Position numbers and translations under genes: made by a program. Below are positions 10,567 through 53,083 of a stretch of 64,000 nucleotides of DNA, one piece after another. The DNA is taken from assembly GCA_008933995.1 (NCBI GenBank), contig WARS01000008.1:14533648-14597647 (forward strand), in the 5' to 3' direction. The notes below the pieces were generated by a model. The model worked only from the letters and a program-made list of their open reading frames with translations. It ran no database searches and was not told the DNA's origin. Every line of letters begins with the position of its first letter. Within the stretch, counting starts at the first letter, position 1. This DNA is from Datnioides undecimradiatus. Its lineage: Eukaryota > Chordata > Actinopteri > Lobotiformes > Datnioididae.

Positions 10567-13500
10567 AAGCGCTTCACCCACACTCCGCTATCCTTCACCC
10601 TCATATCTGTTTTAGCAGCTTTTACACAAGTGCTCGTCTGCTCTGTGCAGGTGAAGGTACAGAAAATATAAAGGTCTTGAATCACTGCGGAAAAATAAAT
10701 CCACAAGGATGCAGACTTCAGCTATGTTGCATTGCAGTTTATTACGGGCTATCATTTCTAGAGAAAACTACTGCAAACCAATCAATTTCTGCAACAGTGT
10801 TTGGAAAAATAAAAGACCAAACAAGACTTGGGTCCTGAAAGATAATGGACATGACTTTCTGCTTTCACTTTCCACACCAAATCATATAAATATAAATCAA
10901 TCATACAATTATGACACATTTCAATAATAATCTTTGGTTGAGCGAATGAAAATAGCTTTGCTCACTTCTAATACAACTTGCCAGATGTGCAGGGTTTGGT
11001 TTTTTTTACTGTTACTCGTGATTTCACTCTTCGTATGATCACTTTTATTGCTACTAATACAATAAACAAAAGGATTTACTGATATAAAATGCAGTGAAAA
11101 TTATTCATGTGTGAAGAAAAGCCACTGTCCTAACCTCAAATAATGCTTCAGACTCGTCATCTGACTCTGGTTAAATGTAAAACACCCTGAGTTAAAACTA
11201 TTCCTTTAATTTCAAGTGATGACTAAGCACAAACATATCCACCCATCTAAAGGCTCAGTCCTGTCAAACTCAGATAAACACTTGTGAAAGCGTATTATCT
11301 ATGATAAGCATGACTAGTATTTGGACATAAGGGTCAGTCATAGCAGTTCCCTCGCTGTGTGTTTACTTAAAGAATCCCAGAGCAGTTTTATTAGTTCTGC
11401 AGCAAAGATGAGTGTGTGAGAATGCTCCATCCCTGAGATATGAACTGACTGGTTCAACCTGCCCTGATGGGTTTATGTCAACAGAGACAAAGAAAGGGGG
11501 GGGGGGGGCAGTCACAGCCACCTCACGGTGATGGTTAGAAGCATGCGAGAACAGTGAAGGGAGGACGGATTGGTTTCTTGAACGATGTGTGCCTGTGGCG
11601 CATTCCTGCCCAGCTTTGTGAATGCATCAACATAAATTGAGGCGAGGAATAAAAGCTGTGTCACTGTGCTGAGGCGGCATTGTGTTACTGCCTGTTGAAA
11701 ATATGTTACAGCAGAAAGGTTGGCAGGTTGTTGCCTTTGATCTCCGTAACTTCTCTGCTCTGTGCCTCGGACGAAATGGGATGATATGGAGTCTTGTGAA
11801 CCGCATCTTCTCTTCTGACATGAACACGCACACGTGCAGCTCGTACATGGATGTGCGTTTGCTTAAATGACCAAACGCGCATCTGCGTGATCGTGCAGTA
11901 CGTGCACCGGCGTCCATCTTGACGATCTTCGCTCTCGAAATCTATGCAAACATGCATCAATATGCGTGTGCAACATGCACTCACAAATCTGCTACATTAA
12001 AAAGTCATGATGAAAATCAGGGAGGATTTGGTTCTTCTCATGCGTGCACTGCAGTGGCTTGAGAAGACTTCAGGTATCTTTAATTATGCAGCACTGTGCA
12101 CTGCTCGTCTGTATCAAAGATTCTATACACACCGCTCTGTTTCAGGAACAAACCTGCAGTTTATATACCCACGTCACATTCAGTCCTTAAACTGTGCCTG
12201 GCTAGTCCTCTCAACCAAGCTCTTGTCATGTAAATTACATCATGTGCATTTTCATTTCACCTTGAGTTCTCAGTCGAGAGTTACCTCCACAGCTGGCACA
12301 CAAATGTTTTGTGTCCCCCCCCCCCCTCCGTTTCAAAGGGAAAACGTCGCGCGCTCCATTCTCTTTACCAAATGTGGAAGCACAGTGACTTCAGCAAGCA
12401 AGCCTCCAATTGAGGTTTTCCGTCCACGAGAAGTGCAATCACTTATTTGGGAGTAGAACCCGATTCTTACTCCACTCCAAACCACAGGTATGCTGCGTTC
12501 GCTTAAAAAAGATGCAAAACTCGACGCTGAAAAACAGTTTAAGGTGCTATGGAGTTTTGATTGTTTAAGTTTCGCCGATGCACAATTTGGATTCAACGTG
12601 GAGACTTGTTAGGAGGCCACAGACGGCACAATGTACGTAATGAAGAAGAGTTTGACCAACGTCGTGCCTGCTGCGTCTCTTTGATATAGACAACAATTAC
12701 AGATCATGAAATACATCTGCATCTCAGCTTTAAACTGATTCAAATGTACTCAAGTGGCGAGGGACAGTTTATCAACACTCCAATAACTATCTAGACTTAA
12801 GACCAATAAATCCAAGCTGTAGTCCTGGTGCCTTTTGTGAATGAATAAAGTACCATACTCTGTAATAACATAATGGTAAACGTTGCATTAAACCAGTGCA
12901 AGAATGTGCCTCTAAAATCTCTTTAGCTTATATTATAGTATAGTGGTTATAATGGTTTATTTATGGTGCTTTCCAATTTTATATCAAAACAAAACACAAT
13001 GACAAGCGTCGGCATGAAAACAGATGCATGAGCTTTTAAAATGAGCTTTAAAGCAGAGACTGTGTCGGCCAACTTGATGCTAAACAAAGTGCTGCTTCGC
13101 CCTTAGTTTGTAACCCAGATGTGGGAACAGTTCAGAGACCCAAACTAGCACACCTGTGAGGCCAACCTAGGTTTAGGAGTTTGGGATTTATACTGCAGTG
13201 CTGGAGCATTCAAGGCCAGATACGTGAACTTGGCACATCACTGTCTGAAAGCAGTCAAACCGGCCTTTCCTTGCACAGCATGGAAGTGACTAGAAGTTAC
13301 TAGAATTGGTGGTTGTGCTTTCTCATAAAACCACAACTACAACTCTGCTCATTGCACTGATTGCAAAGCTTTCTGAAGCAAATTTAAGAGCTACATAAAT
13401 AAATTTAAATAAAACTGACTTTGATAGAATTTAAAACAAAAGGCATTTGACTTTGACATTTGGTTCGAAACACAAGCTGATGACCTACAGTCACAGCAGG

Positions 13501-13635
13501 GTAAAGACATTTTATTACTTCAACTACCTATAAATATTCAATTTCATTATATTCGATTTTATCTGTCGCCTGCTAGTGTAGAAAAGTTCCTAACGCTCCA
13601 CACATAATACTTCCCAACACCTAATAGGTCAGAGG
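10567..13635. other. Gene-free stretch upstream of the CpG-rich promoter
   Basis: No supported gene. It includes a G run near 11,497-11,508 and a C run near 12,317-12,327, both uninformative. The 149-codon open frame at 12,007-12,456 spans the C run, lacks recognisable motifs and was rejected. Confidence 0.55.
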
Positions 13636-13639
13636 ATGA

Positions 13640-14070
13640 AACGCCTCCCATGGGCGGATGTAATCCTGTTGGCTAGTGTGTCTAAAGCCCGCCTTGTTTC
13701 TCACAGACACCTGCAATGTCATTGGTCGACGCGCCTGATCGTCATCGTGCGTGTGCAGTGGGCGTCAGCAGGGAGTTTTCCGGTTCGCGTCCGATTGGCC
13801 GTTGGTGGGTGTTGACGTCACGGCCCTGCCAGCTGATCGGAGTGAGAAGCCGGTTTGAAGAGAGGAGTTGGACCGGAGAGAGAGACCGGGGAGGGAGCCC
13901 CGAGGAGCAGCGAGCGGCACGGGGTGGGACCGGCCAACCGGATACTCAGATTGGACCGTTTTTACAAAATCTTTTTTTAGGGGTTTAAAACGCTAACACC
14001 GGAGTGGCAGCCGCAGAAGCGACAGTCTTGTCGGGGTGAACTTGCGGGGGCTTCGCGTCTCGTCGAAACC
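13640..14070 (+). promoter_or_regulatory. CpG-rich promoter, probable start of the mir-22 host transcript
   Basis: Unlike its AT-rich surroundings, this block is GC-rich and dense in CpG. It carries inverted CCAAT boxes (ATTGG) at 13,721-13,725 and 13,794-13,798 and a perfect CRE at 13,813-13,820, followed by a purine-rich, CpG-rich leader (about 13,830-14,070) typical of a 5' UTR. The inverted CCAAT boxes and CRE just upstream of the leader suggest transcription to the right. Possible first-exon donors are GTGAAC at 14,036 and, stronger, GTAAGTG at 14,611. No long reading frame starts in the block. The next features downstream on the same strand are candidate exon 15,319-15,422 and the mir-22a hairpin, so I infer that it drives the miRNA host RNA. 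A protein-coding gene with a distant start codon remains possible. Confidence 0.65.
13813..13820. promoter_or_regulatory. Perfect cAMP-response element
   Basis: The palindrome TGACGTCA lies within the CpG-rich block, 15-95 bp downstream of two inverted CCAAT boxes. A CREB/ATF-family site in a CpG island promoter is typical of stimulus-responsive genes. That mir-22 host transcription is controlled through it is an inference. Confidence 0.65.
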
Positions 14071-14099
14071 TCTGGAGCTGTCAGAAAAAAAAAAAAATG

Positions 14100-15318
14100 A
14101 TTGAGAGTTAAGGTGTGGCTGAGGGTTTCTGTGAGGCTCCTGCTCTGAGAAAATGTCACAAAACCGACTGCTTCTACTCGAGAGAGGCCAGTCAGCTGTC
14201 AGACTCTTAAATCTACCAATGGCTTTAAAGATTCAGTTCATCAAGGAACATATTACATAACAAATGTATTGCCATCTTGATGTGCGCACCTTTTGTCTTA
14301 AATCCCTCGCTGTAGCCTAGATTAATTAGAGTATTACGCAGTTAAGAGCCAAGTCGAGTATTTCTGTTTTGGCAGCTTTTTCCAGGTCGTTTTGGTTTCT
14401 TAAGTCTGTGAAAATGAAACGGACGTGGCAACTTTACAGTAGCCAGCCCTGCTGAAAGCCACAGGCGAACTGGGCGTGGGGGAAAGAGTCCGAACAGAGC
14501 CTAATAATCCTCAAATCTGATCCAAGCACGGCACAAATTGCGCATATTTGAAATAGTGTGACCACACTGACGAGCGTCTCGGCGGAGCCCGTGGATTTAC
14601 CTGAACCAAAGTAAGTGCGACTGTCTAATGCATTTTGCAAACTTTTTAGCGGAGGTGACATTTAAAGGCCACGGGAGAGGGGCGTGCTACGGCGTTATCT
14701 AAAAGGGATTCTGCCATTTGATCGAGATGTAGAGTCAGTCTAAACGGAAGAAACGGGATGATTTGGCACTGAAGGTGGTGTGTCGGTCGGCGGAGGCCTT
14801 AGAAAATCCTCATTCTCTGTATTTGCCGATGAGACAGTACAGGGATATTACCAGAATAGGATGGGGCGGGTGTGTCTTTACCAAGGCGAACGTCTGGTGC
14901 GTTCATGGAGCCTAAATCCAGAGCCGAGAAGGAGCGGAATCTAAGAGTTGGGTCTATATTACTTCACAGTAGTCTGCTCGACTTGTCAAAGAAGATCGAG
15001 GAGTCGTCCCTCACTCTTGCGATGCGTTTAAGGCACAATAACTCAATCATAATTGAGTGCATGGGCAGACTGACCCTGTACACGTAGTCTAATTAAGATA
15101 AGCTTTAAGTCGAGAGGAAAGCAGATAGAGTGAATTCCTCAAGGCCCCACCCTTTGTAGCGCAACATGGATGTGAAGAGTTGCCCCCACCTCCTCCTCCT
15201 CCTCTTCCTCCTCCTCCTCCTCCTTCTCCTCCTCTTCTCTCTCCCTCTGTCTCACCCTCCGAGTCATTCATTTCCCCTTTCAAGCTTGTCTTATGCTCTT
15301 CTCTCTCCCCCCCCCCAG
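14100..15318 (+). other. Region between CpG-rich promoter and candidate exon 2; strong donor and pyrimidine tract
   Basis: No gene was found. A strong splice donor GTAAGTG is at 14,611. At 15,188-15,316 a (CCT/CTT)n pyrimidine tract ends in a run of C followed by AG at 15,317-15,318, which makes a strong acceptor. The open frame with a poly-Leu stretch over this tract is an artefact of the CTC/CTT repeat. Confidence 0.5.
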
Positions 15319-15422
15319 TATCTCCAGGTGCCTACAGTTAGATCTCCTCGTCTTTCAACCAACTTTGGATCATGGCATCGGGATGTACTTCCAGGACTCC
15401 ACAGAGGTGTTAATTGGTGGAG
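15319..15422 (+). other. Candidate internal exon (104 bp), function unrecognised
   Basis: The acceptor is a long pyrimidine tract ending CCCCAG; the donor is GGAG/GTAAGT, close to the optimum. Two of three frames are open throughout. One contains MYFQDSTEVLIGG (ATG at 15,383) and leaves phase 1. Another runs from YLQVPTVRSP and leaves phase 2. The phase-2 frame joins in frame to the GC3-rich frame of candidate exon 28,380-28,486, but the joined product has no features I know and its GC3 here is unremarkable. A non-coding exon of the mir-22 host RNA is therefore the simplest reading. Confidence 0.45.
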
Positions 15423-16059
15423 GTAAGTTGCATTTGATTCAACCTGTGGAATGCCTGCAGCCCTGCTGTAACCTAATTAAGCGAAAAGAGATTTGCCTAC
15501 ATCACCAACGATAATCAAGTACTGTATTCATTTGACATATTGGTGCATTTTGCAGCGTTTACACCCAATTTTCAATTAGCTTTGTTTAAAAAAACAAAAA
15601 CAAAAAACTGGCACCCTGTTATGTTATGTGCTGTGCTCATCAACCTGTTGCACGTTCGGGCAGTCGCTGCACTCTGCCCCCCCCTGTTTTCTGTGAATTC
15701 TAGTGGCAGGGATTATGTAATTTAATAGGCGGCGTTCAGGGGCCTTTTGCTTATGCAACCTCAGTTTAAAGATTTCAACATTAAGGAAGGCAGCAGGGTG
15801 ACAACTTGTCAAAGTTCAGGATCCAAAGCTCAGATTCTCTAGTTGAAAACCGCGCTGAGTCTGGTTATAATTCAATAAGGAGCGGCTGCCCTTGCGTTCT
15901 GTCCAGCGACCACCAGCTTTTTCCACCTGCGCCCCATCAAGTCGGACAAATGACAGCTCAGACCTTGTCGTCTGAGATCTCTGCAAGGTTTTAAAAGCTC
16001 CTGATGGATAACTTGACCTTGTGCAGACCACAGCCATGTCTTTGGGCCGAGGACTCGCC

Positions 16060-16083
16060 TTTTTTTTTTTTTTTTTTTTTTTT
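16060..16083. repeat. T24 homopolymer
   Basis: Uninterrupted run of T. It may be the poly(A) tail of a minus-strand retroposed sequence, but I recognise no element beside it. Confidence 0.9.
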
Positions 16084-17165
16084 CCCCCATTGTGCTACTG
16101 AGGGATTCATAAGAGGTTCCCGCTGCTGCTTATTTTCCGAGGCCCTGCCCAGTCCCGACAAGCCTTTTTTCTTTAAATGGCAAACGTAATAATGTCCCCC
16201 TTTTCACCTCCTCTTCAAATTCTACATGATGTCGCTTAAGAAAATGCACTTTTCAAGCTGGAGATGCTCTGAAAAATGCTGCACGGAGCACACTTCGCCT
16301 ACTTTTCCTACTCTTTTCCTCAAGAGCCCAGGCCCGCCCGCAGTAATTATCCCCTCTCTGGGTATGAATAGTGAATTATACATGATGCTGCAGGCTGGTC
16401 AGAGTCTGGGCCACCGGACACATCTGGATTATCGGGATGCCACCGCTTGAAATGCCCAGGCTGTGGGCTGTTTCTAAAGAGAATTAACCTCTGTGGTGAT
16501 AATGTCCCAGCACATGTCCCTCCCACTCTCCCCACGCATGGAGCGCTGCGCCGGGACTAGTTTCACATATAGGAGCGTGATAATGCATTTACAAGGCCCC
16601 ATTGACTTTGGTTACAATGACACAGTGTGAGTGTTAAAAGACTGGTATGCAGAAAGGATGTGAAGTTGTTGTTATCGTTGGACGCGTCATAGTGAACTCG
16701 GAAAGAGTTGAGCTGCATGAAATGTGGTCCAGGTTAGGAGCGCACATTAGTGTCAAGTGCTTTAAGTAAAAAAGGAGACAAGCGAGTAATTACAAGAGTA
16801 ATTAACGCTGATTTTTGAAGGTTTTAATGACTTTATAAGTCCACAGCTGAAATGCTATCGAGATGAAATCATTATTCACCACAACAGACCTTCTGCTGTT
16901 CCATACTGTATATCATAGTGCACCACGCCGTGCCGATAAGAAGTTTACCCCCCCCCACATCCTGCTGTTTCTCTCCTTCTCCCCTTTGCCATCTTGTTTG
17001 AGTGTTTGCTTTGTCTGGGCTCTGATTGCTTAGCCACATTGTGCTGACCCATGTACATACGTATGCGTGTGTGTCAGTGGTTTGTCGGCGCAGTCGTTAT
17101 CTATGCGTGGCTAGATGTGATTAATACAGCCGTCCAGCAGTGACGTCCATTGTGCCACTCCCCAG

Positions 17166-17194
<29 letters not shown>
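17166..17194. repeat. (AC)14 microsatellite
   Basis: Perfect dinucleotide repeat, directly visible. Confidence 0.95.
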
Positions 17195-17201
<7 letters not shown>

Positions 17202-18883
17202 CACGTAAGAGGGGAGAAAGACTGGAATCTGGCGTTATTGCCAGCAATTTTGTGTCCCTGCGCCCTCTAATCTCAAGTCGAATGTCAAGCCATCATGAAA
17301 GTCGTTATTTTGAGTGCATATGAATGCATTTATCTGTGTGGGTGTGTGTATATGTGTGAGTATTTGCCATTTTTCATGCAAATGAGTGTATATTTGCGGG
17401 TCTGCAAATTGGAAAGGGTTTAGCCTGACTAACAGGCCTTTTACTTAACTTTTCCAAAACAACCACAGAAAGATCTGGAACCGTTTTGCCCCGTCAGAGT
17501 TACTGACATTGATCAGAACCATAGAATATAAAAATGTGTCATTTGATGACTCACTCTGCTGCTAACTCGAGCTTATGGAAGACCAACCCATCAAATGACC
17601 TGGTGGAGCTGAGCGGGACTGAACATTGACTGTTATTGATGGCCAATCGGAGAGGGGAGGACCTGCGGTGGAAATGCGGTAGCTGCAGTGAGGTTGCACA
17701 TTTTTATGGCCACACCCAGACTGCTTCGGGAAGCTAACTCTGACTAGCTTTGGCTAATTTTTTTACATGCTTTCGGATGAATAGCGCATTGTTAATTGGA
17801 TATTTAAATGTTGCTTCTAACATCCCCACGCAGCTGTCAGATGTTAACAAGTATAGAATTTCTTAGTGGGTCCGAAGGGTGAGTGTCTGCATCCTGTTAA
17901 GTCAACCAAGCTCCTTTTCAGGTGTTGTCATGCTGCACTTATGTATGTAGGCGTGCGTATGGCATCGTCGGATGGAGAGACACAAAACTCTGTGTCTGCA
18001 TTTGCGTGTGCACACGTGCACATCCGCGGGGGCGTGTGCATCATGGCGAAGCCTGAGATATAGTACTCGGTGATGCAATGCTGACAGTATTCCAACTGTG
18101 TCCGAGGCTATATTGTATCTGCCTCATATGGAGAGACACAGCCGCCGTTCCTCGACGGGGCTGTGTGCGGTTTTCCACGCGAGGCCCGAGCTCATATGTA
18201 TAACACATGCTATGCGCTATGTGAGCCTGCCCACTGGAAATGTCCTCTCTAGCAACAAACATGTAAACCTAACAACAAATGAACAGTATTTATCGGCTAA
18301 ATAAATGCCCGATGAGTAACCCTGTCTAGTTTCGTCTGTGGCTCAACCTCAGATCCCTGCCTGTACTTGGGGCATCGCAAGTTTTCCACATGGCACAGCC
18401 AGACTGGACAGAAAGCATTCAAGCCATTTGATGATTCCCAGAGATATTCACCCCTGATGTGTGCCTGTAGTTGCTCTAGTCGAAGAACGGGGTAATTTTG
18501 CCTCGTAGAATTTGCGCACACATGCACAGATAGAGCCAGAGCTGGTAGCCTGAGGGAATAGATATACAGAGAGAGAAACTACAGCAGCCTGTGTGCAAGG
18601 AAAGAGAGCTAAATGAAACCTCATTGTGGGCTCAGGTTGGACTCTTCTAGTTCTGGGCTTTGATTTGTGAGACTGCAGGCGCAGGCTGAGCTAAACTAAA
18701 GCTGTGTCAAGATTATTTTAGGCTGAAGCAATGCTGTAGCATGCTCAGCTTTGGGCTGCTCACTGCAGGACCAGCGGCGAGGAGCGGTGGGCCTCTCAGC
18801 AGACCGGCTGGAATGTGGACCATATGTAGCAGGCATCCCAGGAATGTAACTCGGCCTCGTTGAACTGACCAACCTAAAGACAC

Positions 18884-18907
18884 AGAGAGAGAGAGAGAGA
18901 GAGAGAG
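18884..18907. repeat. (AG)12 microsatellite
   Basis: Perfect dinucleotide repeat within a purine-rich stretch (about 18,880-19,130). Confidence 0.92.
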
Positions 18908-19774
18908 CGGCGCAGGATAAGGTGGAGAGACGGGGATCAAACCAAGGTAGAGCAAGGAAGATGATATTAAAGGACGAAGCAGATCACAGAGGGCAGAAGG
19001 CAAATGGAGGAAAATGAAAGCTCGTGAGACTGAAGACGAGAGCTTAATGAAGCGCATGAGAGAGGAGTAGCACGGCGGAGAAGGAGGGGGGTGATAGAAA
19101 GGGGCAACGGAGGAGCTGAAAGGAGACAAAGTAGTAAAGAAGTGTGACCAAATATTTTATTAAGTTGTAGCCTGTTTGAGCAAAGAGAGAAACACAGGTG
19201 GATGAAAAAAGCGTGAACTGTGCCTTTTAACACAGTGACACAGCGCTTAGGTTAGAGCTCGCTTTCAGTTTTAACCTCTTTGCACGCATTGTTGCTCTCA
19301 CCAGCAGAGTATGACTTGCACGTAGAGAACAAGGGAGTTTTTTAAAATATAAGACTAGCCTTAAAGTGTCAGGAAATAAGGAGCTTAAAATAAAGACTAT
19401 TTGTACCCAATCTGGTTGGTTTTACTTGGGCGTTTGCATCAGTAATTGCCTCACACCAGTCACGAGGTAACATTCTCCACCAGCGCAGGCTTTAACTCAA
19501 GCTGTTGGATGCTATGTTGTATATAATGTGTTCAGTAAACACCTGTACAATGCAGTAGAGGCTGCTTAATGGGGCATGACTTCTGTGGGTGAAACGTGGA
19601 TCAGTATTGCTGTGTGTCGGACCACAGCGTTCTTCCAGCTCACTAACTCGGGGTGAATGTCTCTGTCTCGTCTCTGTTAGCTTAGCACACTGTGCTCTCA
19701 GGCCATCTGGGTACAGCTGGGACCAGAACGGCAGGAAACACACTCACTCACAGATACACACACTTATACAAACA

Positions 19775-19815
19775 TTTTTTTTTTTTTTTTTTTTTCTCCC
19801 CCCAGTCCATGCCTC

Positions 19816-19851
<36 letters not shown>
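19775..19851. repeat. T21 run plus (AC)17 microsatellite
   Basis: A T homopolymer at 19,775-19,795 is followed, after a C-rich spacer, by a perfect AC repeat at 19,818-19,851. Poly-Phe and Thr-His open frames here are artefacts. Confidence 0.93.
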
Positions 19852-19853
<2 letters not shown>

Positions 19854-20734
19854 CCTGCTCAGTGGAGTGTGAGGGCAGTTGACCTCCACTTGCCACAGTT
19901 TTTTATTGACCAACCAAACTGTCATCATTTCATCTTCTGTCGGTGAGATAGGCGAGACCTCCTTAATCCTTCCCAATCTAATTAGAGATTTAGTTCACAA
20001 AACCAGGAACCAATAAACCAAATTACACTCTCGACATTTTGTCGAGACCCACCCACATCGGCGTGGTAGCCCTTTATGGGTGCTGTTGCGCAGCTGGACG
20101 TGACAGGCTGAGGACGGTTGGGTTTGGACAGCCTGAAGTGAATGCTTGTCTCCACACTTGTGTGAAAGGCAGAGGTCAGAGGTCAAATCAACTTAATATG
20201 GTTGGCTGGTGTAAATCAGACAGCCAAGAAGCTGGTGGAGACCAAAAAAGGAGCTCAAATGAGACTGAATATTAACTTTTCTTGGGGAGAACCCAGAAAT
20301 GTGTAAAGATGGTGGAGTAGAGGAGGAAACTTTCTTTTATTCTCTTTCATCCAGGTGCTCACAGTTCAGTTTTGCATTGATTCTGTCTCTTTGCTCTGCC
20401 ATTCGCAGGGCTGTGTATCTTTGATTGCTTCTAATTTAAAGTGCAGTGGTGTACAGTTTTCATTTAAATACATAAAACATGTATTAGGACTCATGAAGTC
20501 GATCAGTCGGGAGATGGCCTATAGCGTATTTCAGCCCTCTGTGTCTTTCTGTCCTTCTCCGGAGGGAGGATGGGTGGGGTGAAGGGATGATACTGAGGAG
20601 ATTCTCTGGATTCGTACCACGCATGGGCAGCTGCCACTTCTTATTCATTTACCCTACAGGCATTTCCTGTCTTTCAGCGCCCTAACTAAACTGCTAGTTA
20701 GAGGGGGAGGGTGACAAAGGATATATATACAGAC

Positions 20735-20759
20735 AGAGAGAGAGAGAGAGAGAGAGAGG
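20735..20759. repeat. (AG)n microsatellite
   Basis: About 12 perfect units, preceded by a short AT alternation. Confidence 0.92.
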
Positions 20760-21055
20760 ACGGATTCGGGGGGAATACAGGGGCATTTAGCCAGAGCAAG
20801 GGATGGACACAAACAGATACATAGAGAGAAACAATGTACTCTTTGACACACTTCTTCCCAGTGGTAGGAAGGGAGATGACAGCCGGAGGAAGCACACAAA
20901 TCTTTTCTTTATGTTGGGCCCCTTTTTACCCAGCGTTCACACCCGTACTTCCACCCCTCTGCTTCTGTATCTCACTGTCTCGGGAGCTTTCTCTCTCCCT
21001 CCTGTGCGGTTACATTTTCCAAAGGACGATTTGATGATTTGATCTGTGCGCGCGG

Positions 21056-21067
<12 letters not shown>

Positions 21068-21095
<28 letters not shown>
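21068..21095. repeat. (GT)14 microsatellite
   Basis: Perfect repeat, preceded by alternating CG/TG sequence (GCGCGCGGGCGTGCGTGTGC). The pair forms an alternating purine-pyrimidine block. Confidence 0.93.
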
Positions 21096-21098
<3 letters not shown>

Positions 21099-21289
21099 AA
21101 AAAATGACACTTTCTGTGTCCTTCACAGGGAGCTCGCATCAGACACGCACGCACGCACACGCCCGCAGTTTTAGAGTCATGCTGCGTCATTGTCTCATCT
21201 GTGCGTGATGGGAACACCAGGACCAGGTTGTCTGCTCCTCACTCCGTGACATCACTGAGGCAAATACTACCCCGCCCCTCTCTCTTCCT

Positions 21290-21315
21290 ACACACACACA
21301 CACACACACACACAC
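21290..21315. repeat. (AC)13 microsatellite
   Basis: Perfect dinucleotide repeat, in the opposite sense to the GT tract about 200 bp to the left. Confidence 0.93.
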
Positions 21316-21982
21316 TCCATACTGTTCCCATGCATTCCCGGCTCCAGATGCTCTGTATAAAGATACTCTGCAGGACTTTACTGGAAGGGCCATTTCCTCT
21401 TCCTCTTCCCCACCTGCTGACTTGACATCACCTCTTCCTTAAGCAAGTACCGTCATGCGCTGGAAGGAAATCGGTGCATTAACAAGCTGTGCTCTCTGGA
21501 TCAAAGGGGTCGCAAAACTTCACACATGTGAGGATAATGGCTTTGGCGTAATTGTTGTCAGGTTGTTGCGTTTTGGTTGTGTATTTTTGGAGCAGAAATA
21601 TCTCGTTAAGATCCATTTGTGTTGCGTGTGTCACCCTCAAAGCTCCAGCCTCGACCCCCAAATTAGAAGAAAAGCTATTATTACTGCACTTTGGGACATT
21701 ACTGGATCTTTCCTACAAGGGGAACAGCTGTACTTGACAAAACCTCTTATGAGGAACACATCAGCTCTTTACGGGGCTTCCGTCCACATTTAAAGAACGC
21801 CTCATGCATAAGTTGTTCTCCCACCTACGACTGTAACTGGTTTCACTTTGAATCATTAATTCATATGTAGATAAAGAGCAGCCGTAGGCACAAACAGAGA
21901 GCGTACCATATAGATGCACGTGGCTCATGCACATGCGTGTGCACCCACGTTCACTCATTTTCTGTCGGCAGTGTTAAGCATG

Positions 21983-21986
<4 letters not shown>

Positions 21987-22030
<44 letters not shown>
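21987..22030. repeat. (TG)22 microsatellite
   Basis: A 44-bp perfect TG repeat followed by CGCGC, one of the two longest TG arrays in the window. Confidence 0.95.
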
Positions 22031-22035
<5 letters not shown>

Positions 22036-22552
22036 TGTGAGAGAACGAGCTGCTGTTATAAAACAGGGCGTGGATCTCCCCGTGCATGCATACATTTTCT
22101 CACACCCAGGCCTAATGCACACACATTCCTCCACCTGCACAGACAACCTCGCAGCGATCAGTTCGAGCGACTCGCTTCTAGCTTGTCCCCCTATCTTGGT
22201 CATGTTGAGAGGCAAGCAGTATGAATGATGAACATACTCTGACAGAGTGCTAGTGTTAGCATGCCTTTGTGCGTGTGTGTGTGTGTACTGTATGTCTCTT
22301 GAAATTCATTCTCTTTCTTCTTGCTAATCCCATTCAAAGCTGTAGGAGGAAAGCACTGGCAAATATATTGATCCACTCTTGACTTGAAAGCAATTTGTCA
22401 TGGCCTTGGGTGGTAAAGGATTAGGGGGGTTGGGTGAACGCATATGATCTAGCGCAGACCAGTTGAAATTTGGAGAACGGCACACCATGCTATCAGCGTG
22501 AACACACGCACATAACTGACGCGAACACCGGGGGATTACAAAAATATCAAGT

Positions 22553-22586
<34 letters not shown>
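22553..22586. repeat. (TAA)11 microsatellite
   Basis: Perfect trinucleotide repeat, giving poly-Ile and poly-Tyr artefact frames. Confidence 0.93.
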
Positions 22587-25500
22587 GCTGTAACCTTTTT
22601 TCCACGTAGGTTGTTCACCTGCAAGAGGCTTAATTGTGGCGGACGTCAATAGAGTTTCTAAAATCTCAGAGCAGGATTCAATCAACAATTGATTGAACAA
22701 GCGGAAGAGAAACACGCTGATCATCATGTCGGAGCATACGTGAATGTCTGTTGTTTGAGCTGGAGATGGCTTGATTGAGAAATGGATGATTTCTTTAGCC
22801 ATATTGACGGTATCCGTTGTGTGAGAACCTCATGTCAGACAACTGGCTCCCTGCTAATAAAAGAAAATAGCTTAATAACTAATATTGATGTTGTTTTCTG
22901 TTGTATTGAAGATCAGTGTGATATGGGACACGGTGAATGTGAGCGATCGCTATGCTGTTACTGAACGCGTTACTGCCTTATAGCCGTCAGTTTGCTGTAA
23001 CAAGGCAACATTAACTGCGGTGCCAAGCTCGCGGCTTTCAAGGGAAAATATTTCAGATTGCTGGGATAACGAAAAAAGGACGAGGGCTGGTTGATGCTGC
23101 TTGTGAATTAGGCATTGCTGACGCCTGATAAGAAATGTGCCAGGGTCTGTTGCAGAGCTGCAGACTATCCTGCATGCATGGAAAACAACTATGCTGTAAT
23201 GAACTCGACATACAGCACGAATCTTACCCCAGATCTCAGGAGAATCATTTCGCTTATAATACCACCTATTCCTATGACACTGCAAATGCCACAGTACAGA
23301 CTGGATGCATTTCTTTGCAATTGATTTTGGATAAAAAATGACATTCTTGTAATGATTCGTGGGGCTTCCCATTCTTTTCGTGTTGGCCAAGTCATTCCCT
23401 GCACGGCCCTCTGGGATATTTTGTTATTGGCATGCATTCATAGATTTAATCCATTCTCCATCCTGCGTGTGTGTGTTTTAAATCATACTTTAGCAAGTAG
23501 ATATCAGTCAAATTTACTGAGAAAGACCATTACAGGTCAAACCAAAGCCCGCAGCTGCCGCCAAGCTAGTTAGGTTTCAATGGAAACAAATGAGGGTGTT
23601 TCCCATCCCCCAGAGGAAGCGCTCTGTGTGTGTGTGTGTGTGTGAAGTCAAATCACTTTCAGCAGGAGGGTTTGTTGATGCTCGGCTGTTTTGCAAAGTG
23701 TCAGTAGATCGTAATTTATTTTAAAAAGTCTTGCAGTGACTTTGCATTTTTCAAAGACTGTGGTTAAAGTGTTACTTCCAAACGCCATTTCAGTTGAACA
23801 TTTGCCCTCATTGTAACCAGGCGGCTGACTTAACCATAACCTTGTCCCTGTCACCTTCTGGCCTAGTTTTTGTTTGCGTGTCAGAGATATGTCCCCACCC
23901 CCTTTTTTCTTTCTCATTTGGTGCTCAACAGATATAAACCTGACAACACCTGAAATACAAACACAGATGGGAAGTTTCTCCAAGAACAATTCAGGGACAG
24001 TCAGCCTTGTTCTCCCTGACTGAAGTTATCACGTGCGCACAGCTTGGAGCGGTGCAATCACTCATACACACGCGCACTGTGTGCCTCTTGTGCGTTTCTT
24101 GTGCGTTTGTGTGTTTGTGCGTACACACTCGGAGAAGCCATTTTCAGCCTGTTGCTTAGGCTGGCTGTAATTGTCCTGGGAATCGTCAGCTCTGTGTAAT
24201 AAATCACTCCTCTGGTACACAGTGTTCTTCACTCCGGGATGGCCTCTGTGTGCGTGTAGTGTGCATGCTTAACATATCACGAGCAGGGAAGGAACATAGC
24301 TAAGGAATAATGGGGGTTGAAAATTACATTAAGAGAGAAAAAGCTGCGGTTCTCTGTCACAACAGGCTTTTTTTAATTCGCCAGAGGCACAACTTCATTT
24401 TTCATGCTGTGTGAAAAGACAAACATTGGCTGTAATTGGGGTATAATGAGGATGTGGACTCATTTCATATTGTCCTTTTTTGGGGGGGTTTTGCACCTTT
24501 TGGTGCTCACTCCTTTCAATTTTCTTCAGCTTTGCATGTCCAGACAGCATAGAAAACCAACGTCAGACCGTGTGAAGCTGAAATATTTAATACAATTACC
24601 ATACTGGATACAAAGTAGGGATAAGGTGGTAATGACAAAGGGTGTCAAAATGTCCTTTTCACCCTTTTTGCGCGGCTGTTTCTTATGGTTTTGTCCCCTA
24701 GAGTGTCATAAGTGCCACAGCTTTACTCATCTTCTTACTGTGGGGCAGATATTTCTCCTTGCATGGGTTGGTGAGCAGTTTGACACTAAATCTGAATGCT
24801 TCTTTTGTTGCACATCATGTCTTGAGCTGAATTTGTCAGATTGAGCCATTTGTTTCGTAGGGAAACAAAGTTGGTTTTTCAGCCTGTGTCATATTGAGGT
24901 TATTACACGGTCACCAGTTTGTTTTATTGTAGCAGCACTGATCTCTGACCTTGTTAGTGTTTGCTGTTCCCTTTTCATCATCCTTCTCTTATTCCTCTTA
25001 TCGGTTCACCTCTCACTCCCTGTCCCAGCAAGAATGTAATATTCTTCCCGGTTTGAATACAATCTGTCAGACACCAGAAGAAACGTATCTCCTCACTGGT
25101 AACAAAGGCCAACAGAGCTATCAGGTGCCTCTTTACAAAGGCCTGGATTTGACCTGGATCTCATCTCCAATAATACCCACCCACAGTGGATCCCACTGGA
25201 TGCAGCACAAGATTCAAGGCCCACTTGCCCATTCAGAATTCCCATCTCACCAGTCGGTCACATTGAGAGGGTGCGTGTCTGTGTGTGTGTGTGTGTGTGT
25301 GTCTCACCAGTCCAGAGCGTTCCACTGTTGCTCAGAGCAGCGTGGGGTTCGTTGAGTTTCCAGGGGTTGCTGGGTTCGTGGTGCTGCTGAGAGCTAGTTT
25401 GCCCAAAGTCCTGTCCTTGAACTGTGAAAGAATATGCTGCTAGGGAAAGGCTTTTCAGACCGACTGACTGCAATAGTTGAAGTCAGGCCAGCTGAATGGA

Positions 25501-26248
25501 AGCCAGGCAAGACAAATCCTGGGCAACTCGTAAGTATTAGACAGTGGCCAGCTGAGAGCGAATGTTAAAGTGGTACATCACATGGAGGGTTTTCTTGTCA
25601 CTTTTAATTTCTGACACTTGATTGGGCCATGGTTAAACTTTCAAGACCGTTTCGTAGCGAAGAAGATGATGGACCAAATTAGCCCTGTGCAGTCACTCTT
25701 AGGGGCTTCATCCTTCGACCAAAATCTCTGAAACTGACATTCACTGGGACGGAAATCTGTGGGGTTTTCTCAAGGTGAAATAACAAAATACTTGACATGT
25801 TGGTGAAGCAGTCGCACACCCAAGGGAGTGGAAGTGTCTAAACTGCAAGGAAAATTCCTTCATTCAGCCCTCAATGGCTGCTGTAAACTGAACTGCCCCA
25901 CAGGACAAGAACTGTTTTCTATCAGGAGTTCCAGGCTGTAACCAGAGGCCAAGCTATCTAGCTAGCAAAGACTTCTGTATTCAATTATAGCAAAAAAAAA
26001 AAAAAAAAGGCAGGGAGAATGCTGAAACAGTAGGCTGGCATGTCTGATGCAGGCCCGCAACGCGCCGGTGCGCACACGCAGCTTGTTTGTTTACGCGTGC
26101 ACGCACACATTTAAACGCGCTGTAAACCGCAGTATTCACAAATAAGGACAAAGGAATGTTATAAAGTTTTCCTCTCTGGTATCTTTCGCTCTGCGTCCTC
26201 ACCTCTCTCCCACAACAAGTTCCCTTTAAAGAAAGCCTAGAGAGAAAT

Positions 26249-26272
26249 GTGTGTGTGTGTGTGTGTGTGTGT
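26249..26272. repeat. (GT)12 microsatellite
   Basis: Perfect repeat about 420 bp upstream of the mir-22a hairpin. Confidence 0.93.
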
Positions 26273-26703
26273 ATTTTTGTGCCAAGCGACAACAGCCATA
26301 GCCAAAAGCTGAAGCCAATGTGGAAGCGCCTTAAGACGGAGGACAAGTAATGGTTGCTAGATGCCGGCTCCAAAAAAATCTCCCAACAGCCCAGAATTCA
26401 ATAGAAAAGCTCCCAAATTTTCTCTCATTAATTGTTTTGTCAGAAGACGTTATGGCCCGGAGAACCTATTTAACTTGCTAATTTGTGCCTTGGTGGTGAT
26501 TTTGAGAATTACTGTGGACATTAGGACTCACAGAGGAGTGTGTTGGTGGTTTTCCTCTCCTGTTAGCTTCTGGTAGCGTCACCGCTAACAGAATTCAAAG
26601 TGTCATTTTCAGGAGAAACTGTGATTGACTTCTCTCAATACATGTCCTACAGGTTAATGTGTGTATCGGGGCATCCCTGGGTGCTCATTGGCTGACCTAC
26701 AGC

Positions 26704-26725
26704 AGTTCTTCACTGGCAAGCTTTA
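26704..26725 (+). ncRNA. mir22a: mature miR-22a-5p
   Basis: This is the 22-nt 5' arm beginning AGTTCTTCAC and ending AAGCTTTA. Boundaries are set by analogy with known miR-22-5p and leave the usual offset against the 3p strand. Confidence 0.9.
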
Positions 26726-26744
26726 TGTCCTCATGTACCAGCTA

Positions 26745-26766
26745 AAGCTGCCAGCTGAAGAACTGT
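26745..26766 (+). ncRNA. mir22a: mature miR-22a-3p
   Basis: This is the 22-nt guide arm beginning AAGCTGCCAG and ending AAGAACTGT. The seed (positions 2-8) is AGCTGCC, identical to vertebrate miR-22. Confidence 0.95.
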
Positions 26767-26777
26767 TGTGGTCGGCC

Positions 26778-28379
26778 CTTTCCTGCACTGAAGACCCGTC
26801 AGTCCTCCGGAGGATAATGATCCAATCACGTCCAGCCTCCGATCGTCACGTGGTCGCAGTCCATCGCGGCACGAAAACCCTGTTACTTATGCGGCGTGTT
26901 CATGCGTTGAGATTTATGCCATGACACCTGCTGTATCATGTAACAAAAGCATTGCATCACGGGACTGCACAGCTCATCTCACTGTCATTTTGGGGTTCGT
27001 CTTCATGGTCGCTGTGCAGTTCAGCGTTTGTTTTTAATGGCATGTCATTATAATGTTGCTGCGCAGCGTCGGCACAATTGTGAGTTTGCACCTGGCTTGC
27101 ATCATTCGCCGAGCATCAGCAGTCAGATTCAACGGGGTTTATTTTATTTTTGCCCTTGTTTCAGGCTTGAAATATGAGTCCTTGCTAGAATGTAAAGAAA
27201 AAACAAACATCTGAAACCGATTCCTTAGCTTTTTTAGAAATTTTCCAATGATATTTAACCTCTGAGGCAATTAGAAGCTGTTCCACTTGAGGTCTATATT
27301 CCTATTATTTATACTAATATATATTTTTAACTGCTAGTGGTGACAGTACATAGTAATCATGCTGTTTTATAAAAGTTTGGTTTGTGTGCTTAATGACTAG
27401 TGAGGAAAACCCCCAAACTAATGACCCTTAAATAAGAAATAAATAGACGGACAGCTGAAGTCGGCTGTCATCAACATGCTTCTGCTTTTACTCCTCCGTG
27501 TCATGAAAGACACCCAGCAGCTCTCTCCTGTAACAACCCGGAGTGGCGTGAAGAGGGGCGCGCATGTAACCAGACAGACGGACATCTTGCCCGTGACCCA
27601 GGGCAGTCGTAAAATCGAACTTCAAGAGAGAGGGCGATGCCCGGAGCAGGATATGAGAGCGAACGTGTCCCTTTAAAAGCTGCCAGCCAGAGTCGAACAG
27701 AGGGAAGGAATGTTCTGAGGCCTTAACAAAACCAGATGCCCCGGCTTAGGCTACTCTCCCCTTTGCACACATGCTCTCTGTTGCCGTCTCTCACTCGTCT
27801 AGCTCTTACTTAGCACCGCAGATGGAGGCAGCCTCCTTCGCTCAGCCTGTCTAAAGTACATCTTCTTCTTTTTCGACTACCTTTCATCATGGTCTGGCTC
27901 CTAGCTCCCCGTCTGTGTCCCAATCTACTTATCTTCTTGTCTGCTCCTCTTTACCGTTCTGTCCTTTATGCTTGGCAGACCTTTTCCTCACCCCTCCTCC
28001 ACCCATACAATCCTCCATCACTCCAGTGAGAGACACACACACACACAAGGGAAACACCAATGCAGGATTATTCCCGTCTCCCTCCTGTACATCCTCTTCA
28101 GGTAGCACTGCCAGTACCTGCATTAATGCATATAAGGGTCACACCTTGACCTTGTGTGTTGTGTAGGTTAGTTTCAGGTCAGTGACTCGTCTGCCTGATC
28201 CGCTCCCAGGGAATCGGCCTGTGAGTGCATTAAGAGATTGTGGAGGCATGAGAAGCGCCTGCAGTCAGGTGAATCCACCCTGATCCAACACGACGCGGCC
28301 ATTTTGCTTTCCGCTAGCATAGATTTGAATTCATGTGTCTGCGCATGCATCCCCCTCTTCCTCCCTCTCTCCCATCCAG
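26778..28379 (+). other. Downstream of mir-22a, no gene seen
   Basis: Mixed-composition sequence without a supported exon. A 66-codon open frame at 27,476-27,676 and an 83-codon frame at 27,915-28,166 have no recognisable motif. If the host transcript model is right, this is exon tail and/or intron. Confidence 0.45.
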
Positions 28380-28486
28380 ATGCGCCACACCCGCGCCACT
28401 AGACCTGGGTGGCCCGTACCTGTGCCTGCGCCAGCTGCCGTGCCAGCTGTGCGGGGCGACGAAGCAGAACAGCATCACAGACAGAG
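28380..28486 (+). other. Candidate exon (107 bp) with coding-like base composition, unrecognised
   Basis: The acceptor is TTCCTCCCTCTCTCCCATCCAG, a long pyrimidine tract ending in AG; the donor is CAGAG/GTGAAC. The block is about 64% GC in AT-rich surroundings. One frame (codons from 28,381; CATPAPLDLGGPYLCLRQLP, then CQLCGATKQNSITDR) is open and has G or C at 29 of 35 third positions, which suggests translation. It needs a preceding exon ending in phase 2; candidate exon 15,319-15,422 read in one of its open frames satisfies this. A second frame opens with an ATG exactly at the acceptor. I recognise no protein family, and a non-coding host-RNA exon is equally possible. Confidence 0.45.
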
Positions 28487-30865
28487 GTGAACAGACAGCT
28501 GCTGCAGACGGGGAGACGGAGGGGCATCATCAAAGGAGAACCAAGTCAACCTACACGCCATCAATCATAACATATTCATTATTAGCTTATTTTACAGCAC
28601 AGGACTTATAAATCAGTTGCAGTCATTTAAAATTGAAACTAAGGTTGATTAATTTGTACAATGCTGCTGTCAAATACTATAATAATGATACAAACTGTGT
28701 ACTGTGTTATATCCAATATTAGGGTCTTCTGAAATTATATATAACATGATAGTTAAAACATTACCACAAGGATTGGCAACATTAAATCTTTTGACATTCA
28801 TAAGTCATCTCGCACACAAGTGGAGGCTCAGATTTACCTGTCGGTGGCTGAACTACAGCACTTTGGTGTTCCAGGCTCCGGGCTTATGGACTTAGCGAAC
28901 ACTATTCCTGTTTGGAGACATACATTATACTGCCAGAGGGAACATAAACAATAATCTTCTTAAGGTGTGAGCTGCTCTGTGTGCAGTTATAGCAAGCCCT
29001 TACTCAAGCAATTTACGGGTATGTGAAGATGAGGTAGTGAGCAGAACTGTGCCGTAATGTGTTATTGTGGTGCACTTACCTGCTCAGTCGGTTCAGCGCT
29101 GAAATGGCGTTTTTTGTCGATTTCTGTGTAAACCTGCACAGCAACAAACAGCCTCTTCCCAGCGCTCACTCTGACTCAGACTATAGACAAGCACGTGTGA
29201 CACTAACATTAACAGAGGCTCCTTTAGGTGTCACACATCGCACCTGTGCTTTTCAGGCTGAAATGTCTGCAGTGCAAAAGGTCTCTGACCTTAAACTGGA
29301 GATTGCTGTCGGTTAGGGAATAACTTTTACTAATAACAAACTTTTCACTGTTGCAGTCTTTTAATCAGCATCAGACAGGCATCTGCAGAGGGTTAGCTAG
29401 AGCACGAACAGCACAGCAGGCTATAAGCCGTCTTAGCTGTTATGGGGCTGCTTGAACTCGGTGAAAGCCAGAAGAAAGAAGCTAAAAACTACACGCTATA
29501 TATTTTTCAGCATTTTACAAAACAAGAATAAATCATTTTGAAAATAAGAGGTCAGCCAAAACACCATCAATCTCTAGTTCTTGGTCTTTAATGGTTTTGG
29601 TTTTTAAATACTTCCTGGTTTTAATTTTTTGGTGTTTTTTTTTATTTTTTTATTTTAACCTCAGCCTGAAAGTCAAGAAGCTCCTAAACCAATTAAAAAT
29701 GTGACTATAAGCTGGGATTTCACCGATATTTTAATTTCCAAAACCAAGGCATTTTAAATTTTGACCCGCGGTGCTATCAAATGCCAAAAGTCAGAGCGTT
29801 GCGACTCACTGATACAGATTTTCCTGTAAGGATAGAGTTCCCGGTGCCCTTTGGAATATGTAATCCCAGTCACGTCTTTGCACAGCATGTATAGACATCA
29901 GCCCGTTGACTTTGACCCCTAGCTGCTAGTAGATTAACTTCATCTGTTCGAGTTCCTCTGCCCCTCACGGAGAAGGTCACAGACGTTTCCTACAGTCTTT
30001 TTAAGAAGATAAATTGAATCTGCCGCGGAGATCTTCTCCCTCGGGACGTCTTTATAAGATGCAATCTGTGTTTCTTATCACTCAGTTTTAGTGTAATGGC
30101 TAATGGAGTGATAGGTGATGGGCTTTAGTATACTTGTAGATAGAAAGTGAGACAACAAAGTGCTGATGGACAAGATGCACGGATCCTAGGTTTGTAGATA
30201 ATTTGTAATGGTTGTGTGTGTGTGTGTGTACAGAAATGATTAAACTGCAAATGAGCTGAGGAGGGTTTTTTTTTTAGATTGAAGTATTCTCTGGTATAGT
30301 GTCTGCTGTCCAGCCCTTGTTCACCTCTTAAGTCAAAGCAGGAAGAAGCTCCAAGGCCAGGTCTGAAGAGGTTTACAAACCTCTCCTAAATTCTTCCCTG
30401 TGGGTGAAATCATGTGAAAGCTGCTTAGGCAGATTATCCCTGCCTCGACGGCAGCTGGCAGCGAGATCCTTGGGAGTGCACCTGACTCAATACTGGTGGT
30501 GACGCAACCGCAGCCTGCGGCGCAGCGTGCTCCCACAATCCTCTGTGACCTTAAACCCTGAAGGCAAAAGTGCATCTTGTGGTTTGAAGCAAGCAGGAAC
30601 TAAATCAGAGGATCATCACGCATCGTGTGAATGCACTAATCAAGATACAAGATCTGATTACGCAAAAACTGAGAAATGTTTAATCCGTTATAAATAAAGT
30701 AGGATAATCAGCTAATTTGATTGTTGAGGGATCTGCTTTAACCACTTTAGATTGTGAATAAATATTAAATTACTTGTTAAACCTTAATTCCATGAACTCA
30801 ATTTGTGTAACTGGTTGATCTGAACTATCCCTCTGCAAGCTAGCACAAACAAACTCATCAATCGA
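28487..30865. other. Gene-free stretch
   Basis: AT-rich sequence with short homopolymers and a small (TG)n tract near 30,211-30,229. No exon, RNA gene or recognisable repeat was identified. Confidence 0.5.
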
Positions 30866-35473: not shown

Positions 35474-35998
35474 ATTGTTACCTTCATACAGAAGCTAGCT
35501 GTTCCCCACTATGTCCAGTCTTAATGCTAAAATCAGGGCCAAAATAAAATATATGCAGAGAATAAAACACTTAATTTTACATTTTTATCCAGTGTCTGTA
35601 TTTCTTTGACAGTAAGATAATGAACACAAACAATATACAAACCTGAGGCCAGTGTTGCTGTATGGGAACATGCAGTGGTGTGTCTGTGGTCTTCTTCTAC
35701 TGTGGATCACAGGCGACACCGATGGTGCTGCGCTTTAGGGTTAAACATAGTGTGAGTTTGAAATGGAGATTAGTAACAGATGTGACAAATATCTCAAACA
35801 TAAAGATATCACAGTGTTGGATGCAGCAAGTTTTGGTTTTCTTACTGTAAGTGGTGAGCGTAGACCACCCCCGAGCTTCCTTTAATTTTACTGTAGTGTT
35901 AAAGTGGAAGCCAAACCCATCCTCCAGTGTCATCCATTGGATGAATGCCCAAGACCAGAGGCAGTTCTTCAGAGTGGGGAGGTTCAGAAACCAAGCTG

Positions 35999-36000
<2 letters not shown>

Positions 36001-36078
<78 letters not shown>
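36001..36078. repeat. (GATA)19 tetranucleotide array
   Basis: A 78-bp uninterrupted GATA/TAGA repeat giving Leu-Ser-Ile-Tyr repeats in minus frames. Perfect over its length, hence probably polymorphic in copy number. Confidence 0.97.
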
Positions 36079-39000
36079 GTGTGCATACGTGTGTACAGTG
36101 TGCCTGCTCACCATGTGAGAGCAGGCTGACCTTTGCTTTTAGCTGCATGCGACAACCTCTCCAGGATGGAAAAAGCGTGTGTGCATATGTGCGTGCGTGC
36201 ATCTGGGAGTGTCCCTCTCTGTGTGCATCTCACGCATACTTGAGGAAATTGTCAATAGACGACCACGACCAGCTCCTGCCCTCTGAGAGCACATGGTCCG
36301 TATTAAAGCCCGTCAGATGCTGCCGTCTCCCACAAAGGCGCGTTCGCTACCAGGTTCTCCGGTCAAACATCCGCCGTTTTCAGTGGATGTCCTTGGTTAG
36401 GAAATGACATTGCATTTGAAATAGCGCTTCTGACTGGATAATCTCTCCCGGGAGTGTTAGCAGAGACTTCCAAGTTCAATGGGTTTGTGTTCAGTCATGC
36501 AGAGTGTAACAGTGGACTGTGATACTGTAAGGCTGCAATCGATGCATTATTCACATAACTTGGTTTAGCTCCAGAGCTCCAAAGCAGTGCAGCCCTTTTA
36601 AAGATATACAGCACGCCTCAAGGTGGTGAGTTAAAATCAAACTAAAACTTTCCAAGAGTTGCACATTTCTGAAAGCACAAGCTAATGATTCCACACGTTC
36701 TCATTTATAAGTGCACATATAGTCTCTCTGTTAGTGCAACGATGGCTTAAAGATTAAAAACAAGCTTTAAAAAGTACTTTTACTTATTACTATGATTTAC
36801 TTTTTGCTGAGTGCAAAGCTCAGAGTTTAGCCAGGCTGTTGCTGCGCTTCAGGGGAGAGATTTGGTTTAACTGATAGAAAAATCTCTGTATGTATAATAA
36901 AAAATTTAAACACAGCATAACACAAACAAAAAAATCTTTTCACTGCACCCCCAACTGGGCTTTTTTTAAATTTAACATCAAACTTTTCTATCACAGAATT
37001 CCTACATCTTTAATAGTTCGATCCATCTGCTTCTAAACAGGTAGACGATTTGTCTCAAGGGCTGGGCCAGGTTAAGTGTATTGAGGTCAGACAGGATGGC
37101 CTCTGAACAGCGCCTGTTTAATCCCGTGACCTGGTCCAACCAACAGATTAGACCGGCTTGTTGGGGGAAATACTCAGGTCGATCCTGTCGCTCTCTGTTG
37201 GCTGCACTTCAATCACATTCAATATCTCTCTTCCTCTTCCACCCCTCTCTCATATCCCCACTGGCTCGGCAGAAAAGGTCAATACGGCACCGTCACATTG
37301 CTTCATCACCGCGCGGGACTACTTTAAACAATGAGTAATGACGGTAGCGCAGGCAGGATTTTGTAACAGGATGACTTCATGGCATTTACCGAACAAAAAA
37401 AACAAAAAAACAACAACATAAAAGAGCAGACAATATCGTGAGAGACAATGAAACCATAAGCCATGAGCAATTCCATTAAGCGCACTCACATCACAACAGT
37501 TAACACGTCTGCGGCAGGTTGAATAACAAGCGCAGCACACAACTATTTTAATTTAAAAGGGATGTTCCTGTGAAACACCTGCTAGGTGGGAAGACAGCAT
37601 ATTGACTAAAACATCTGAGGCAAAATTACAAGAAAGGTCACAGCAGGTGAACAAAAAAAACACCCAATAACACTTTTTAAAAAAACATTTTTAAGAGGGT
37701 CGCTAATGTCGTCAGTTTGCAAGTTGTCGAAAGAGAAGGCGCAGGATTGTTGCGGCAGCTGCTTCATTGCAGAGCAGCTGCAGGTGTTGGCAGCAACTCG
37801 TCTCTTTGTTGTTTAATAATTTGTGCAGTTGGTTAGGGAAGTGATGCTTTACGGTGAAAGGATAATAGATGAGCTCTAGAGAGGGATGGTAAAACAAAAA
37901 GTAGGGAACTTAAATGCAGCGTTAAGCCCAAAACTAATGATTTGTCAGTAATCGAAAGTGGGACTCGAGAGCCGGGTTTTGTGCTTTATTCTGTGAAAAA
38001 TACAGTAAATCTGTTACACGTCTGGTCTTAGGATCCGTTTGCTGCAAAGAATTTAGTTGGTATATAAGTCAGTTGTGTTGTTTTAAATATTTCTGCCCTT
38101 TGCATGCCACCAAATGAAAAACAGACATTAAAATCAGATTTGTGTTGACATGCTAGTGTGGCGTAAACACCACACGGCTAGAACTCAGAGTTTAAAGTGA
38201 ATTATGCTCAGATTTACATCACATGCAGCAGCATGGGCCCGATTTACATGCCGTGCGTGTATTAAAACCGTTTTTGCATTTTGTTTGTCGTGCAGGTGGT
38301 AGAGAGCCTTTGTTGAGGGTAAACAGTGAGATTAGGCCTGCGCACGGCTGCTAGGTCTATTAGGTCAATCAGCTCTATTAGCTCGCAGCATGCGCGCAGG
38401 AGGATTTGCCTTGTCTTTGTCAGCGTCTCATCAAAACTATACTGTCAATTACTGCTGACACCACCGACAACACAGAGACGGTACCGGCCACAGATATGCG
38501 TCCTCGAAATTAACCTCCCGAACCATAACCTTAAAAATCAAGAGGTTAGGGAGGCCAAAAGACGACGCCTTAAATAGGATTATTTGAAACTGGAGTGTGA
38601 GAAAGCTGTTTTTCCTAATGGGGACTGTCGATGAGTGCGGCTGCAGATTATTACTTAAGTACTTCTTTTCCCTCAGATATGTTCAGGATCTTATAGGACG
38701 TTTACTTTACTGCACTTCTACACAGACACTTAGATCTTAATCTGACATGTTATGTTCATTTACAAGTCACAGGAGGTTTAACTCAGCCTGTGAACACACT
38801 TGTACAACAACAGTAAATTCTTTGTTTGGGCTTTCAGCCTTAGTTAATAGAAATCTTTGGTTACGTGGGTACAACGAGGGACATAGAATTAAACTTATAT
38901 AGACAAATTGGCAAGTTTTATCGCTGCACTGATTTTAGTTATTTTTTACCATTATTGTGTCTTAGGTCTCCCAGTTTTTAAAAAAAGGAAAAGGAAATAT

Positions 39001-47363: not shown

Positions 47364-47395
<32 letters not shown>

Positions 47396-52582: not shown

Positions 52583-53083
<501 letters not shown>

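Follow-up and report, generated by a model that had tools for sequence, protein, structure and literature searches.

A hairpin at positions 26690–26777 of the plus strand overlaps an open reading frame of 87 codons, raising the question of whether this part of the window (the whole 64-kb stretch of DNA that was analysed) encodes a structured RNA or a protein. Judged from its sequence, the stretch is an intact and ordinary copy of mir-22, a well-known microRNA gene of vertebrates, in its fish 22a form. Taken as a whole, the locus is almost certainly best explained as the mir-22a gene of a fish, with a teleost the likeliest source; the gene would be transcribed within a host RNA and processed by Drosha and Dicer.

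The fold of the putative precursor is well defined. The original prediction had placed a hairpin at 26690–26777, with both arms and the loop intact and the basal stem fully paired, and had proposed folding 26680–26790 as a check. On the plus strand, this interval gives a stable hairpin of −60.3 kcal/mol, with a z-score of −9.14 against 200 dinucleotide shuffles (mean −30.7, s.d. 3.24), none of which folded as well, and the arms and basal stem are found as predicted. The energy of the shorter interval 26690–26776, −50.3 kcal/mol, was matched by 0 of 6392 segments of 87 nt taken on a 20-nt grid from both strands of the 64 kb, and the hairpin is the sole inverted repeat reported within 26400–27200. 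The basal stem consists of GGCTGACC (26690–26697) fully paired with GGTCGGCC (26770–26777), forming eight pairs, one of which is T–G; the stem positions left unpaired in the fold are 26698, 26719, 26726, and 26755. Position 26704 is predicted to pair with 26764, and 26725 with 26743; therefore, the two arms make up a duplex that leaves a 2-nt 3′ overhang at either end. The predicted fold thus combines a stable stem, opposed arms, and 2-nt 3′ overhangs, as expected of a canonical microRNA hairpin.

The family of the hairpin is established by its match to the Rfam mir-22 model (RF00653), which aligns to 26690–26776 over its entire length (positions 1–84 of 84) with a score of 96.5 bits (E = 8.9e-24), above the curated cut-off of 48 bits. 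This is the only Rfam match at gathering score in the 64-kb window. The predicted mature arms, miR-22a-5p at 26704–26725 and miR-22a-3p at 26745–26766, both on the plus strand, have the same sequences as the arms of the zebrafish precursor printed in PMC8984383, and their coordinates agree exactly with those originally proposed. Together with the Rfam score, the identity to the zebrafish arms, as printed, bears out the earlier assignment to the miR-22 family; likewise, the vertebrate miR-22 seed that had been read on the 3p arm, AGCTGCC, is present there as AGCUGCC at nucleotides 2–8. Zebrafish miR-22a and miR-22b are both placed under AGCUGC in PMC2427041. The choice of ‘22a’ over ‘22b’, also part of the original prediction, is supported by the 3p sequence, which is of the 22a form in the window and of the miR-22b form, exactly that of zebrafish miR-22b, at another locus of the same genome (C328, described below). 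Among 15 papers whose full text contains at least one of six mir-22 22-mers, the window’s 3p form appears in 13 (12 on fish, judging by title, and one on pig) and the 22b form in three.

Comparison with two published fish precursors places the hairpin close to its counterparts. Zebrafish mir-22a shares 91 of 98 bases over the portion printed in PMC8984383, with both mature arms identical; the seven substitutions comprise one in the base of the 5′ stem, two in the loop, two in the basal 3′ strand, and two in the 3′ flank. Over the printed Japanese flounder precursor, pol-mir-22a (PMC3144956), 65 of 67 bases are the same and both arms are again identical, the two substitutions (26738 and 26741) falling in the loop or at its edge. 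The mature arms are thus those of published miR-22a in both species, as far as the printed sequences extend, and the nearness to the two precursors supports the description of the hairpin as ‘fish-type’.

A search of the source assembly (581 Mb in 497 contigs) with RF00653 returned five matches, corresponding to three loci above the cut-off and, below it, the complements of two of these loci. Besides the window’s copy, these loci are a second mir-22a-type copy at C493:1718274–1718360 on the minus strand (83.6 bits) and a mir-22b copy at C328:3111102–3111188 on the plus strand (80.7 bits). The C493 copy and the window agree over the whole 5p arm, and their 3p arms differ only at the last base (T in the window, C in C493), but the loop and basal stem differ as well; the C493 3p 22-mer ending in C was found in none of the 15 papers mentioned above. 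The C328 copy shares the seed and overall hairpin with the window, and its 3p arm is that of miR-22b of zebrafish (PMC3994061) and marine medaka (PMC4211694). An alignment of the four hairpins (window, zebrafish, C493, and C328) has 36 consensus pairs, two of which, both in the basal stem, are kept through changes on both sides; four of the consensus pairs are each disrupted in a single sequence. With two further mir-22 loci in the genome, one copy could decay, and the window’s hairpin might in principle be a mir-22 pseudogene or have lost its processing. This is highly improbable, since the window’s copy has the best Rfam score of the three (96.5 versus 83.6 and 80.7 bits), its arms match exactly the printed arms of two other fish, and its sense-strand fold has the lowest energy of the three copies with 0, 12, and 25 nt of flank (without flank, −50.3 kcal/mol, compared with −45.7 for C493 and −36.1 for C328).

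The overlapping reading frame deserves separate consideration. The frame exists as originally described, at 26661–26924 on the plus strand with 87 codons. Its start codon is GTG, and its first in-frame ATG lies at 26733, so an ATG-started version would have at most 63 codons. If it were a protein-coding exon, the hairpin would be incidental. Consistent with coding, the frame stays open for 264 nt. The same frame is also open in C493, where it begins at an ATG and runs for 213 nt, and across the 96 nt of zebrafish sequence that could be read from the printed precursor, and a 31-residue stretch of it shares 77% identity with C493. That identity, however, is confined to 26688–26780, no more than 3 bases beyond a hairpin that is conserved as RNA. 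In the mir-22b copy on C328, the frame closes within the 5p arm; the ORF has no Pfam match, and its start is a GTG. Long open frames are, moreover, common in the window: counted from stop to stop, 112 reach 87 codons or more, compared with 34–47 in five base shuffles. We rejected a protein reading because the ORF lacks a Pfam match, its similarity to C493 is limited to the hairpin, and the frame is closed in C328; that the locus is a coding exon is barely credible, and a protein called from this ORF is very probably not real. The earlier judgement that the ORF is spurious is well supported by the Pfam result and the closed frame in C328, with the frame open in C493 and in the printed zebrafish sequence.

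A functional precursor on the antisense strand is scarcely conceivable and was rejected: the minus strand does score 38.5 bits against the mir-22 model, but this is below the cut-off of 48 and no more than expected when a near-perfect hairpin is read from its complement, and the known arms are on the plus strand. A search of 12000–29000 for RNA families at E values up to 1 gave ten matches, with only the sense mir-22 match above its cut-off. A match to mir-980, a fly relative of mir-22, overlaps the hairpin with 23.8 bits against a cut-off of 47 and was also rejected.

The mir-22a gene of the window lies upstream of recognizable protein-coding exons on the same strand. Those of an AIPL1-like gene (46458–49566, plus strand) match Pfam PPIase_AIP above the cut-off in two ORFs and TPR below the cut-off in two further ORFs, and in the PDB the first exon is matched best by AIPL1 (8eoa, 5.2e-30), ahead of AIP (6.2e-18). 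Farther downstream, at 52583–53083 on the plus strand, a CD225-domain exon (Pfam CD225, 2.2e-10) presumably belongs to a TRARG1 (TUSC5)-like gene; in human, AIPL1 and TRARG1 are located on 17p13. The AIPL1-like exons separate mir-22a from the CD225 exon; the genome has two more AIP/AIPL1-like loci, on C482 and C325. Pfam was applied to 20 hand-picked ORFs of the window, including the hairpin ORF 26661–26924. Fifteen gave no match, and the five that did are the CD225 exon and four AIPL1-like pieces, two of the latter scoring below the cut-off. Among ten ORFs from the C493 and C328 loci, six were matched and four unmatched. All these ORFs were picked from well over a thousand frames per locus, so that genes without a picked exon would be missed. 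Simple-repeat stretches at 21871–22305 and 35697–36107 yield long low-complexity frames in the ORF list. No tRNAs were found.

The 64-kb window was compared with 60 kb surrounding each of the other mir-22 copies, and a shared arrangement emerged at C493. There, a CD225-type exon, 41% identical to that of the window, is found on the same strand as mir-22 and ~2.4 kb downstream of it, compared with ~26 kb in the window; it scores 26.3 bits, slightly below the Pfam cut-off of 27.1. Within the 60 kb around the C328 mir-22b copy, no CD225-type match was reported, and the neighbours are RRM, claudin-family, and BTB exons. Around the hairpin, the window and C493 are 85% similar across 107 bp; outside it, once low-complexity rows are dropped, the longest same-strand match is one of 64 bp in the CD225 exon. 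Because the CD225/TRARG1-like neighbour and an upstream element are common to the window and C493, the two copies appear to represent a duplicated mir-22a block, which would be explained most simply by the teleost genome duplication.

The shared upstream element spans 39 bp (13815–13853, plus strand) and is 87% identical to its C493 counterpart. It lies on the same strand as the hairpin at both loci, ~12.9 kb upstream in the window and ~7.4 kb upstream in C493, and opens with ACGTCA in both copies. The element is contained in 13701–14000, the top-ranked 300-bp interval of the 64 kb by the product of CpG observed/expected and GC content. A pattern made from its last 28 bases (13826–13853, with one base free) has only two matches in the genome, in the window and in C493, and the same pattern written backward as a control has none. 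With up to seven substitutions allowed, no match to the element was found in the 60 kb surrounding mir-22b (C328). Beyond the 39 bp, the rest of the candidate first-exon region reaches a local score of 24, which is little above chance (29 of 500 shuffles reach it). Eleven nucleotides of the element (12 in the C493 copy, C493:1725787–1725814) also occur, in the same sense, in the middle of miR-22a-3p (CTGCCAGCTGA), possibly a coincidence around the E-box-like CAGCTG; being of the same sense, the identity provides no target site for the 3p arm.

The element is a candidate for the promoter or first exon of a host gene. With a hand-made splice-scoring matrix, candidate donors were placed at 14113 in the window and 22915 in the C493 piece, and candidate acceptors at 26567 in the window (score 9.1) and at 29854 (15.9) and 29927 (10.5) in the C328 piece. 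The window’s candidate acceptor (26549–26567, plus strand) would start an exon 123 nt upstream of the hairpin; its score compares with a 99th percentile of 9.4 among 4404 plus-strand AG sites of the window. Between this acceptor and the hairpin there is no conservation, 307 of 500 shuffles doing as well. The candidate sites would make the hairpin part of exon 2, as it is in the human gene; the sequence flanking them is unconserved between the window and C493. Human MIR22HG is described in PMC11766054 as a non-coding host gene at 17p13.3 with miR-22 in exon 2. Unlike MIR22HG, the host gene proposed here, with its candidate first exon ~12.9 kb upstream, is one that we infer, its promoter and splicing being suggested by the short conserved element and the weak splice scores. 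We give about even weight to the fuller proposal that the two mir-22a copies arose by duplication, with the teleost genome duplication as the likeliest event, and that only two conserved pieces of a non-coding host gene survive in them: the hairpin and a ~39-bp promoter or first-exon element that would drive both copies.

The motifs surrounding the hairpin were compared with the usual positions of the basal UG and CNNC motifs. A TG at 26689–26690 (plus strand), −15/−14 from the 5p start, lies one base away from where the basal UG is usually found, and a CNNC (26783–26786, plus strand), the SRSF3-type Drosha motif, starts 17 nt past the 3p end; the loop end of the 5p arm carries UGU and not the apical UGUG. 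The nearest CNNC after the 3p arm starts at 15 in C493 and 16 in C328, compared with 17 in the window. The window’s CNNC at +17 differs from zebrafish mir-22a, where the motif is absent from the 21 bases printed 3′ of the 3p arm (PMC8984383). CNNC is described as a Drosha motif present in only ~60% of hairpins in PMC6298569. Because the TG is one base off and CNNC is missing from the printed zebrafish bases, the Drosha motifs lend weak support to the mir-22a reading.

By analogy with the known family, transcription, processing, and targeting of mir-22a at this locus may be pictured as follows. Transcription by polymerase II would begin upstream, perhaps at the CpG-rich element at ~13.8 kb, and would yield an RNA, probably a spliced non-coding host transcript, that contains the hairpin 26690–26777. 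Drosha/DGCR8 would excise the pre-miRNA, and Dicer would free the duplex of 26704–26725 and 26745–26766 with its 2-nt 3′ overhangs. The 3p arm, with the seed AGCUGCC, would then be loaded into Argonaute, resulting in mRNA repression.

Roles of miR-22a are known in fish; in zebrafish, for instance, it acts in the guidance of vessels and motor axons through sema4c (PMC8984383). The miR-22a locus described here is a clean case of a non-coding gene that annotation based only on open reading frames would mislabel. Its three-copy arrangement in the genome, together with the upstream element common to two of the copies, offers a small example of microRNA gene duplication that can be tested.
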